Position numbers and translations under genes: made by a program. Positions 1 through 23,030 of a DNA stretch of 64,000 bases are shown piece by piece. A model generated the notes under the pieces. The model did not search any database and was not told the origin of the DNA. It saw nothing but the letters and a program-made list of their open reading frames with translations. The DNA comes from Carbonactinospora thermoautotrophica (GTDB taxonomy: Bacteria > Actinomycetota > Actinomycetes > Streptomycetales > Carbonactinosporaceae), in contig NZ_JYIJ01000010.1 in assembly GCF_001543895.1 (NCBI RefSeq), positions 1-64,000 on the forward strand. The letters are read 5' to 3'. Each line of letters starts with the position of its first letter. Within the stretch, counting starts at the first letter, position 1.

Positions 1-1039
1 CGGCCCCGCCCGCGCCGACGCTGCCGCCCGCGCCGCCGGGCACCACACCCCCGGCCCGGCCGATCCCGGCCCCGCCGCCGACCCGGCCGCCACCGACCCC
101 GGAGCCGCGACCGGCCCCACCACTCACCGGCGGCAGCACCCCGACCGGCGGGACGACCCCACTCGATGCGCCCGACCCCGTGGGCTGCCAACCGCCCGGC
201 GACTGGCCCGGCAACCCCTGCCCGGGTGACGGATTGACGCCCTCCAGCTCACTGCCCAACGGACCCCCACCCGGCAGCGCGCCGCCACCCGCCGGCACCC
301 GACCGCCCAGGCCACCATCACCGCCCCCGTAGCCGTGGACGCTCCCGCCGCCGTACCCGGCGACACCGCCGCCACCGCCACCCGAGCCGGAAACACCGGA
401 GTAACCTCGCCCCGAATGACCGGATACACCCGTTCCCGACCCGCCGTCGCCAGGGTCCTTCCAGTCGTCGACGTCCGGCGTGTCCTTCCCCCGCACCGTC
501 CCGGGGGCTAGCACTTCAGCGGCCTGGCGGTATTCAGCGTCGGCTGCGGCGACCAGCCGGATGGCTTCCTGGCGGTCGCGTTCCATCTCCTGGAGTTCGC
601 GTTCGCCGATCACGCGGCCGACGATCCCGCCGATGACGTTCACGCCGGGGGCGGGCGGTAGGGCCGCGCCTGCCCCGTGCTTGAGCGCCTTGGCCGCCGC
701 GACCTTCCACTCCGGTGGCGGGGGCGGCATCTGCTTCGCCTTAGCCAGGGCATCCCCGGCGGAGGACAGCGCCCTGCCGGCGGTCTCCGCGTCGTTGGCG
801 AGCGTGGTCGTCGACTTGACGATGTAGTCCACGGCCTGGCCGAACTGTTCGGCCGCCTGGCCCTGCCACGCGCCGGAGGCTTGCAGGGCGCGTACCTCGG
901 CCTGCAGCACGCCGATCTGCTCGCGCAGGTCGGCGGCGACCCGCTGCCAGTGCTCGCCCGCCCCGTGCAACGCGCTCGGGTCGGCGTTCTCGACCAGCTT
1001 CCACAGCTGGTCGTGGTCCAGCGACTCGTACTTCGACAT
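1..1039 (-). CDS. WXG-type/PPE-like type VII secretion protein with Gly-Pro-rich tail (copy 1, partial)
   Basis: The 3' end lies beyond the left edge; 346 codons are visible, starting at ATG 1039 (MSKYESLDHD). The N-terminal ~110 residues are predicted helical and contain a W-Q-G motif at residues 58-60 followed by AEQF, the pattern of WXG100-type substrates of type VII secretion. A hydrophobic Gly/Pro stretch (PGVNVIGGIVGRVIG) follows, then a long low-complexity Gly/Pro/Ser tail. It is a near-duplicate of the gene at 3635-4922, and here the reading frame stays open through the tail. It is the last visible member of a minus-strand run that includes a mycosin, so a secreted or cell-surface role is likely. 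WXG family membership is inferred from motif and context only. Confidence 0.75.
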   Translation of the reverse strand, partial: MSKYESLDHDQLWKLVENADPSALHGAGEHWQRVAADLREQIGVLQAEVRALQASGAWQGQAAEQFGQAVDYIVKSTTTLANDAETAGRALSSAGDALAKAKQMPPPPPEWKVAAAKALKHGAGAALPPAPGVNVIGGIVGRVIGERELQEMERDRQEAIRLVAAADAEYRQAAEVLAPGTVRGKDTPDVDDWKDPGDGGSGTGVSGHSGRGYSGVSGSGGGGGGVAGYGGGSVHGYGGGDGGLGGRVPAGGGALPGGGPLGSELEGVNPSPGQGLPGQSPGGWQPTGSGASSGVVPPVGVLPPVSGGAGRGSGVGGGRVGGGAGIGRAGGVVPGGAGGSVGAGGA

Positions 1040-3634: not shown

Positions 3635-4922
3635 CTATTCGATGACCGGGGGCACGGTCGGCTTCTTCACCGCCCAGGTGTCCTCGTCCTCGACCAGGTA
3701 CGAGGGGCGGCGGCTGCGCTCGCGTTCCTGCTCACCCCCCGCCCCGCCGTGCGCCCCATGCGCACCCATCATGCCCGCCGGCCCACCGGCCCCGGTCGGC
3801 CGGCCACCGCCGGCCCCGGTCCCGGCCGGGCGTCCCCCGGAGATCCCGGACCCGGGCACCGCGCCCCCACCGCCCGGCACCCGGCCGGCCCCGCCCGCGC
3901 CGACGCTGCCGCCCGCGCCGCCGGGCACCACACCCCCGGCCCGGCCGATCCCGGCCCCGCCGCCGACCCGGCCGCCACCGACCCCGGAGCCGCGACCGGC
4001 CCCACCACCACTCACCGGTGGCAGCACCCCGACCGGCGGGACCACCCCACCCGACGCGCCCGACCCCGTGGGCTGCCAACCGCCCGGCGACTGGCCCGGC
4101 AAACCTTGCCGGCGGGTTGACGCCCTCCAGCTCACTGCCCAACGGACCCCCACCCGGCAGCGCGCCGCCACCCGCCGGCACCCGACCGCTCAGGCCACCA
4201 TCACCGGCCCCGTAGCCGTGAACGCCTCTGCCCCCGCCGTACCCGGCGACGCCCCCACCGCCGCCCGGGCCGGAGACGCCGGAGTAGCTGCTCCCCTGAT
4301 GACCGGACACGCTCGCCCGCGAGCCGCTCTCACCAGAGTCCTTCCACTCTTCAACATCCGGACCGCCCCAGTCGACCTCTGCTGTTGGGTCCAACTGGCG
4401 GGCCGCCTGCCGGTACTCGGCGTCGGCTGCGGCCACGAGCCGGATGGCTTCCTGGCGGTCGCGTTCCATCTCCTGGAGTTCGCGTTCGCCGATCACGCGG
4501 CCGACGATCCCGCCGATGACGTTCACGCCCGGGGCGGGCGGCATGGCCACGCCCGCCCCGTACTTGAGCGCCTTGGCCGCCGCGACCTTCCAGTCCGGCG
4601 GCGGGGGCGGCATCCGCTTGGCCTGGGCCAGCGCATCACCAGCGGAGGACAGCGCCCTGCCGGCGGTCTCCGCGTCTTCCGCGACCTGGTGGGTGGATTT
4701 GACGATGTGGTCCACGACCTGGCTGAACTGCTCGGCCGCCTGGCCCTGCCACGCGCCGGAGGCCTGCAGGGCGCGCACCTCGGCCTGCAGCACGCCGATC
4801 TGCTCGCGCAGGTCGGCGGCGACCCGCTGCCAGTGCTCACCCGCCCCGTGCAACGCGCCCGGGTCGGCGTTCTCGACCAGCTTCCAGAGCTGGTCGTGGT
4901 CCAGCGACTCGTACTTCGACAT
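3635..4922 (-). pseudogene. WXG-type/PPE-like protein, copy 2, frameshifted in the Gly-Pro tail
   Basis: The N-terminus from ATG 4922 is almost the same as copy 1 (1-1039), including the W-Q-G motif at residues 58-60 and the PGVNVIGGIVGRVIG segment. Near 4098-4130, after the residues GSELEGVNP, this copy is 5 bases shorter than copy 1. The original frame therefore runs into arginine-rich missense and stops at 3732-3734, whereas the native tail (GLPGQSPGGWQPTG onward) resumes in another frame and ends at 3635-3637 with the residues KKPTVPPVIE. Both halves are open, so the break is recent, phase-variable or a sequence error. Without the shift it would be a ~430-residue secreted WXG-type protein beside the mycosin. 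Confidence 0.75.
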
Positions 4923-9032: not shown

Positions 9033-9082
9033 CGTCGAGTGTGCGTGTCGTCCCACGCGTGGGACGACACGCACACTCGACG
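9033..9082. repeat. 50-bp perfect palindrome downstream of the XRE-TPR gene
   Basis: Every base from 9033 to 9082 pairs about the centre at 9057/9058 (ACGCGT core, outer CGTCGAG and CTCGACG). It begins 5 bases past the stop of the minus-strand regulator gene. A second copy at 10716-10765 differs at one paired position only, with both arms changed together. As RNA it would form a 23-bp or longer stem, a strong bidirectional terminator candidate despite the lack of a T-run. Confidence 0.8.
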
Positions 9083-10715: not shown

Positions 10716-10765
10716 CGTCGAGTGTGGGTGTCGTCCCACGCGTGGGACGACACCCACACTCGACG
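10716..10765. repeat. 50-bp perfect palindrome downstream of hsdR
   Basis: Palindromic about 10740/10741, with the same core and ends as the palindrome at 9033-9082. The only change relative to that copy is C to G in the left arm, matched by G to C in the right arm. It starts 9 bases past the hsdR stop (minus strand). The position, just after a gene end, suggests a transcription terminator; the pair also brackets the XRE-TPR gene exactly. Confidence 0.8.
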
Positions 10766-20463: not shown

Positions 20464-20651
20464 GCCGCACCCCCTCCATGGCTCAGCTTCCTGGGCGGTG
20501 CCCAGCATACCCGCCGTCGACCTTGGTTGACACCGACCTACGGGAACTTCTGGTGTACGAAGCATCCGCAAGATTTGTGGTTGACAGAGTTCACAGCGAT
20601 CGACTTCACTAGATCGCGGCACGGGCGTCCGGCCTAGTGAGAGGAATCCGC

Positions 20652-21194
20652 ATGAAGCACCGCCGTACCGTCGCCGTCCTGGCGATCACCGTCGCCGCTC
20701 TCGCCGGCTGCGCCGGGCCCACCAACGGGACCGACTGGGGCGGCAACAGCGTCAAGAACGCCGAGGCCCCTGCGTCCGGCGCCGCGACGCCGAGCCCGAC
20801 CAAGGACGCCCCGAAGGTCTTCGACATGGGCTACACGGCCACCATCACCCAGGGCAGCGAGGAGACCCTGAAGATCACCGTGTCGAACCCCAGGAACCTC
20901 AAGTCCGACCCGTACTACAAGCCCGAGAAGGGCCGCTTCCTCGCCGTCACGGTCGAGTTCACCGCCCTCGCCCCGGTGGACGTGAACCCGTTCGACTTCG
21001 TGGCCGTCGGCGCGGACGGCACCCGCTACGAGCCGACCGTCGGGCCGGAATCGGCTGGCCAGGAGTTGCACGCCGCCACGCTCAACCAGGGGGAGAAGCT
21101 CAAGGGCGTGGTCGTGTTCGACGTGCCAAAGGAGGGGGTCACCGGCATCGCCTACGCCCCGCTCAGCCAGGTCCTCGGCACCTGGCGACTCTGA
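20652..21194 (+). CDS. Lipoprotein with DUF4352-like immunoglobulin-type domain
   Basis: 180 residues from ATG 20652 (GAGAGGA upstream). A lipoprotein signal peptide ends at the lipobox LAGC (Cys near residue 20), followed by a Ser/Thr/Pro linker. The domain then reads GRFLAVTVEFTALAPVDVNPFDFVAVGADGTRY and KLKGVVVFDVPKEG, the pattern of DUF4352/telomeric-repeat-like beta sandwiches seen in many Gram-positive lipoproteins. It should be anchored to the outer face of the membrane. It diverges from the methylase operon; a TTGACA hexamer at 20581-20586 may be part of its promoter, though no clear -10 box follows. Function unknown. Confidence 0.82.
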   Translation: MKHRRTVAVLAITVAALAGCAGPTNGTDWGGNSVKNAEAPASGAATPSPTKDAPKVFDMGYTATITQGSEETLKITVSNPRNLKSDPYYKPEKGRFLAVTVEFTALAPVDVNPFDFVAVGADGTRYEPTVGPESAGQELHAATLNQGEKLKGVVVFDVPKEGVTGIAYAPLSQVLGTWRL

Positions 21195-21199
21195 AAGCA

Positions 21200-21315
21200 G
21201 CCGGCGGCGGGCCCAGCAAGGGGGGCTGGGCCCAGCAAGGGGGGATCGGCCCGGAGGGGGGATGGGCCTTGAAGGGGGGATTGGGCCTCGAAGGGGGGAT
21301 GGGCCCGCCGCCGGC
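21200..21315. repeat. G-run repeat array enclosed by a 15-bp inverted repeat
   Basis: Five imperfect units of 17-19 bp (21213-21304), each with a run of six G and a following GGGC or CGGC, lie between perfect inverted arms GCCGGCGGCGGGCCC (21200-21214) and GGGCCCGCCGCCGGC (21301-21315). It fills the gap between the lipoprotein and the TIGR04141-like gene. The array could fold as a G-quadruplex or a stem with a G-rich loop; terminator, attenuator or recombination site are all possible. Confidence 0.8.
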
Positions 21316-21372: not shown

Positions 21373-23030
21373 ATGTCCGCGAGGAAGCGGAAGAACCCGA
21401 CCACCCGCAAGAGCACGTTGTACCGGCTGCGCCTGCCCAAGGCATCGCCAGAAGGCCTGCGCGCCATCGTGGTCAAGCGCTACCTGGAGCAGTACAGCTT
21501 CGCCGAGGAAGAGGTCACCGTCGCCGGAGCGCCCGGACTGCTGGTCCACGGCGTGATCGAACGCGACACCCCCGCCGACTGGTGCGAGGCCGTGGGCCGG
21601 CTGACCGGCAAGCAGGTCGCCGTGGGTACCGGACGGCCGCGGCCGTGCTGCTCCTCACTGTCGATGACGAGACGTACGCCCTCACCTACGGCATGGGCCA
21701 CCTGCTGATCGATCGAGGTTTCATCGAGCCCGGGTTCGGTCTCGCCTTTGCGGTCCGCGTTGTTGATCCAGGCAAGGTGCGGCAGGCGACCCACAGGCTG
21801 ATTGACACATCTGGCCGCATCAACCGCAGCTCAGTGCCGAGCGGACAGCACATCCGCGCCTTCGGCATCGAGGAGTACGGCGAGATTATCGGCCGCTTGA
21901 CCGGTGAATTGCGCGGCGTGAGCCTGACCTTCACCCGGAGAAGGGACCGCGCTGCCAGCATCGCGGGCGCGGACGCCCTCAAGATCCATCTTGGGACGAG
22001 CACGGAAGACCTGCTCACCGACCTGCGCGAGATCTCCCGCATCTGCGCGCAAGGAAGTCCGGTACCAGGACTGGAATTCATCACCCAGACGCGGGCGCTG
22101 AAGGCGGGCGAAGAGCCGGAAGGTGAACTCAACCAGAAGTTGGCGGAGATGCTCGGCGCGCCGGAGCCGCCGGACACCCTCGCGCTCGCCATCCCCGACG
22201 CCTGCCTGGCGCAGGAGGAAACAGCGCACTCGTACCGAGTGAGGATCGGCTCGGGCAGGTACCAGGTGATCGATGACCTGACCCTGGCGGACATCGTGGG
22301 ACCGCTGCGGAACCTGCCGCAGGAAGAGCGCCTGGAGGCCCTGCGCGAGGGATACGTCCAGATGTGCTCCGATGCCGAAGGAAAAGAGGAGGCAAGCCAA
22401 CGGATCAAGGCGCGTAACTGGATCACCGCTGAGATCCCCCTCGGCGCCGGCCGCTACGTGTACCACCAGGGGCGCTGGTACGTGGTGGGCGAAGGCCACC
22501 TGGATGCCTTGCGCGAGCGCGTGCGGGAGATCCTCGAACGGGGTTCTTCCCTGGAGTTGCCGCCCTGGCCAAGGGAGTACAAAGAAGATCAGTACAACCG
22601 GTACGCCGCCGACCAGCTTGGCCTGGTGTGCATGGACAAGAAGTCCCTGCACACCAAACAGCATCCACATGGCATCGAAGCCTGCGACCTGCTCGGCCCG
22701 GGGAACGAGCTGATCCACGTCAAGCGAGCTAAGGAGGGCAGCACCCCGCTCAGCCACCTCTTCGCCCAAGGGATAATTGCGGTGGACGCGCTGCTCAACG
22801 AGCCGGACGCCCGGGAGAAGTTCGTCCAGCAGGTCCGCGAGCAGAACCCGGACTGGCCGATTGACGAGACCTTCCGCCCGCGTAAGGTCGTCTACGCCAT
22901 CATGCTGAAGTCCGGTGAGGCGATCACCGTGAAGAGCCTCTTCACCTTCGCCCAGGTCATGCTCTACCGCGCGGTCACCACGCTCCAGCGCCTCAACGTC
23001 GAGGTCGAAGTCGTCGGCATTCCTCGGTGA
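21373..23030 (+). pseudogene. TIGR04141/DUF6119-type sporadically distributed protein, with one frameshift
   Basis: Starts at ATG 21373 (MSARKRKNPTTRKSTLYRLRLP; AAAGGA upstream). The first frame is good to about 21625 (LTGKQVAVGT), then reads missense and stops at 21708. The next frame picks up at once with TAAAVLLLTVDDETYALTYGMGH and continues to the stop at 23030 (KSLFTFAQVMLYRAVTTLQRL). One missing base near 21626-21630 explains it. The restored protein would be ~550 residues, the usual size of the TIGR04141 family, often found in defence-rich regions but with no established activity. The C-terminal half has a nuclease-like feel (HGIEACDLL, ELIHVKRAKEG), reminiscent of a D-(x)n-(E/H)xK site. 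Real decay or a sequencing error are both possible. Confidence 0.75.

Follow-up and report, generated by a model that had tools for sequence, protein, structure and literature searches.

Genomic context and organization of the element

In the window, by which we mean the whole stretch of 64,000 nucleotides that was analysed, which comes from a GC-rich actinobacterium, a compact intergenic element (21200-21315) lies between two genes, as the preliminary description had stated; both genes are on the forward strand. The upstream gene (20637-21194, likely start ATG at 20652, stop codon at 21192-21194) encodes a DUF4352-type lipoprotein (Pfam PF11611, E = 3.4e-11), and the stem of the element starts 5 bp past its stop codon. 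The end of the element is separated by 57 bp from a co-directional TIGR04141/DUF6119 gene (~21373-23030). An intact homologue from another genome aligns to this gene in two frames, first with residues 1-82 and then with residues 87-561, and the break falls between 21621 and 21633. The gene may thus have decayed by frameshift, or the break may reflect a sequencing error. To the left of the element, on the opposite strand, are HsdM-like, N6-methylase and HsdS-like genes.

Sequence inspection and an inverted-repeat search resolve the element into five G6 runs enclosed by a perfect inverted repeat. The two arms (21200-21215 and 21300-21315, forward strand) are 100% complementary and 84 nt apart; they were first described as 15 bp long and prove to be 16 nt. 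The G6 runs start at 21220, 21239, 21256, 21274 and 21293, with spacings of 19, 17, 18 and 19 bp, which agrees with the five units of 17-19 bp reported earlier. Together with the output of TRF (period 19, 5.3 copies, 84% matches, score 113), these positions define a tandem array at 21209-21306 on the forward strand, consisting of about five 17-19 bp units of the form GGGCC(N)AAGGGGGGAT, with the TRF consensus GGGCCCAGAAGGGGGGAT. Similarity is greatest between units 1 and 2 and between units 4 and 5. A coding repeat was considered and rejected, since the spacing from unit to unit does not keep to multiples of three, which puts the units out of frame.

Six GGGCCC-like boxes alternate with the five G6 runs. 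Each box is fully or almost fully self-complementary, enabling neighbouring units to pair as local hairpins, and fold prediction indicates that the outer boxes are also able to pair concentrically. The first local hairpin (21209-21233, forward strand) has 9-bp arms, GGGCCCAGC/GCTGGGCCC, and a loop of 7 nt.

Comparison with random expectation

The element is real and non-random, and chance is no explanation for it. G6 is rare in the window, with 22 occurrences on both strands compared to 132 expected from shuffled sequences; the presence of five of these 22 within 79 bp is therefore striking. Dinucleotide shuffles of the element itself reached five G6 runs in 7 of 1000 cases. Forty windows of 64 kb generated from a first-order Markov model contained no perfect inverted repeat of at least 16 bp with a loop of up to 150. 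The statistics on tandem arrays and hairpins of the own genome given here and below come from a sample of 424 kb, for which genes were called heuristically and in which only two tandem arrays have a period of at least 10 and at least four copies, namely the array of the element and one other.

Other repeats in the genome

Among tandem arrays in the 424-kb sample, the longest has 9.7 copies of the 18-bp unit GACGGGGAACCGGTGACC (L112, 12450-12624); it is possibly coding, 18 being a multiple of three. TRF also identified one series of tandem-repeat arrays twice at the beginning of the window (6-647 and 3891-4529), offset by ~3885 bp, an indication that a gene, or a segment of one, has been duplicated there.

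A perfect, loopless palindrome of ~50 bp (CGTCGAGTGTGCGTGTCGTCACACG and its reverse complement) is dispersed in the genome and occurs in the window at 9033-9082 and 10716-10765. Its core is found in 29 copies in the genome, allowing up to 3 mismatches; of 118 further genomes from the order, one contains it, with 2 mismatches. The copies are mostly intergenic, several of them between convergent genes, and the differences among them preserve the complementarity of both arms, suggesting selection on, or conversion of, the palindrome. This dispersed palindrome is more interesting than the G6 element.

Distribution of the element

The element is present in a single copy in its own genome (5.13 Mb, 19 contigs), where the search otherwise returned only short chance matches and one unrelated triple-G6 site. 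A dispersed intergenic repeat family, which would have several copies, was accordingly rejected. The preliminary description had also offered a replication or recombination site or an island boundary as explanations. The single copy lends no weight to the former, and nothing else points there; the latter was discarded, since the change in GC content is gradual, without a step at 21.2 kb, and the window contains no tRNA.

A search of 59 further genomes from the order detected no copy of the array and gave one weak 42-bp match (41 bits), at a site without the array; the genome studied here is the sole member of its family among the genomes searched. A scan of ~85,000 species genomes with a pattern for two adjacent units, which may exclude records of the genome studied here, identified 40 scattered stretches in mostly unrelated phyla, with one match each and none with the array. 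The same pattern gave two single matches in viral contigs. No Rfam match was obtained for the element at E-values up to 1. The array is a curiosity of one genome, seen in no other genome searched, and does not represent a novel type of system.

Within the order, G6 arrays unrelated to this one appear sporadically. A four-unit G6/GGCC array is located between two convergent genes in L081, beside hairpin-like sequence, and is an independent parallel to the element. At the pattern matches in L037 and L049, from Nitrosovibrio and Betaproteobacteria MAGs, arrays of TTATGAGGGGGGATCCGGCC-like units contain up to five G6 within 600 bp. These arrays, common to two contigs of related organisms, are unrelated to the array of the window and seem to be a separate G6 repeat that recurs there.

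The single copy, the absence from all other genomes searched and the sporadic appearance of unrelated G6 arrays in the order are in line with a neutral intergenic minisatellite, in which G-rich units would have been multiplied by replication slippage without any function, and the inverted arms would be a by-product of the palindromic GGGCCC boxes. G-rich repeats are known to be unstable in E. coli when transcribed (PMC7023247), which also fits. However, the arms continue to match perfectly for 8-10 bp past the repeat unit, which box duplication alone would not give, and the G runs stay at exactly six G in all five units while the spacers diverge. We regard a neutral minisatellite as possible but rather improbable, and as the main rival of the gene-end hairpin discussed below.

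A tandem array directly upstream of a function-unassigned gene, with restriction-modification-type genes close by, also recalls the repeat arrays that precede the toxin genes of type III toxin-antitoxin systems, and the element could then encode a repeat RNA belonging to the TIGR04141 gene. A repeat array would in that case be expected upstream of homologous genes, but none of 17 other DUF6119 loci, drawn from 22 other DUF6119-bearing genomes of the class, has G6 runs or a similar array within 350 bp upstream, and the longest perfect inverted repeat in these regions has 13-bp arms. The array therefore does not travel with the DUF6119 gene. Considering also the frameshift in the TIGR04141 gene and the lack of an Rfam match, such a repeat RNA is extremely unlikely. 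The switch role proposed in the preliminary description likewise found no support, with neither an Rfam match nor a counterpart upstream of other DUF6119 genes.

Predicted fold and potential for quadruplex formation

The combination of a stem and a G-rich loop, as noted initially, is borne out as a predicted structure. The minimum free energy of the element on the coding strand is -72.3 kcal/mol (z = -3.3 against shuffles), and the opposite strand folds with a z-score of -4.3 against shuffles. When quadruplexes are allowed (ViennaRNA), the energy becomes -95.4 kcal/mol, with runs 2-5 in the quadruplex and the closed stem intact; this value is reached by 5 of 100 shuffles. Lack of conservation together with lack of a stable fold had been named at the outset as grounds for abandoning a special role. 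No conservation was indeed detected in the relatives available, yet the predicted fold of the element is stable.

Formation of a G-quadruplex by the array is plausible on the basis of these models. The linkers between the five G6 runs are 11-13 nt long, which is long, and the quadruplex energy parameters are extrapolated. The element lacks a set of four full G-tracts separated by loops of 1-7 nt, and the sole pattern with such loops is a G3 pattern at 21256-21285 that also uses G's of the boxes. The element could act as a quadruplex or R-loop element, where transcription would expose the G-rich coding strand and an RNA or DNA quadruplex would pause the polymerase or regulate the neighbouring genes. 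The G4Hunter score of the window peaks at the array and the quadruplex-enabled energy is the lower of the two, both consistent with such a role, but the shuffles that reach this energy, the long linkers, the extrapolated energies, the competition of the GGGCCC boxes for pairing and the absence of conservation, both in the 59 other genomes of the order and at the 17 other DUF6119 loci, make it unlikely. The models would also accommodate a stem-caged, multi-layer G-quadruplex terminator, with the stem gathering the G6 runs and a co-transcriptional quadruplex replacing the missing U-tract, which we consider very unlikely.

A putative gene-end stem-loop

The position of the element favours a transcript-end structure, because its stem begins 5 bp past a stop codon. 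A gene-end hairpin at this distance is the plainest reading, and is missing from the preliminary description. Specifically, the element may be a gene-end stem-loop (a terminator or an mRNA 3' stabiliser) of the U-poor type of GC-rich actinobacteria, with a loop expanded by tandem duplication, a proposal to which we assign about an even chance. Autonomous termination by U-less hairpins is disputed. In Streptomyces, Term-seq has found 3' ends to be poor in U and to have the most stable hairpins (PMC12207403). It has also revealed a large group of 3' ends that are structured but lack U (PMC8269248); these could be terminators, or ends that are protected once Rho has acted. Hairpins that occur in clusters and have no poly-U have likewise been put forward as terminators (PMC8355165).

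Two features of U-poor terminators are present: a stable GC-rich stem-loop within 80 bases of the stop codon, and no U-tract after the stem, where the tail is CAACACGC. No terminator-like match was obtained at the element. The loop of the outer stem (84 nt) is far above the usual size, the loops of U-poor terminators being a few nucleotides; only the local hairpins, such as the first one, fit the normal terminator pattern.

Perfect hairpins in the 424-kb sample are often located no more than 80 bp from a predicted gene 3' end when their arms are 11 bp (57%), 13 bp (57%) or 14 bp and longer (44%), compared to 10% of random points, while those with arms of 10 and 12 bp (14% and 21%) are not or only slightly enriched; the numbers are low, genes were called heuristically, and one palindrome family, to which some of the longest hairpins belong, accounts for part of the enrichment. 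Among gene-end hairpins with arms of at least 12 bp, 19 of 21 are without a T-rich tail.

We infer that the element is transcribed as the 3'-end structure of the lipoprotein mRNA. Moving past the stop codon at 21194, the polymerase would make the 9-bp hairpin, then further GGGCC boxes, until lastly the 16-bp GC-rich stem could close. Even with no U-tract, the closed stem would stall or release the polymerase, or else shield the 3' end of the mRNA from exonucleases. The loop has probably grown by slipped-strand duplication of the GGGCC(N)AAGGGGGGAT unit; the greatest similarity being between units 1-2 and 4-5 is as expected from local duplication.

Significance and relation to known systems

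The element is most likely a gene-end hairpin of an ordinary type, whose unusual part is the locally expanded G-rich loop. How transcripts end without U-tracts in very GC-rich bacteria is still debated, and a natural hairpin with five G6 runs in its loop is a handy test object for this question. Beyond this value, the element is a local peculiarity of one genome.

The array resembles intergenic minisatellites with G-quadruplex potential in its short G-run units, variable spacing and sporadic occurrence, but differs from them in being enclosed in a perfect inverted repeat. With the U-poor (I-shaped, HS-U-lack) gene-end hairpins of GC-rich actinobacteria, the element shares GC-richness, high stability, proximity to the stop codon and the absence of a U-tract, whereas its long loop contains five G6 units and theirs are short. 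It is also similar to the proposed hairpin clusters (PMC8355165), having a series of successive GC hairpins no more than 80 bases from the stop codon; in the element, however, these hairpins are tandem repeats located inside an outer stem.
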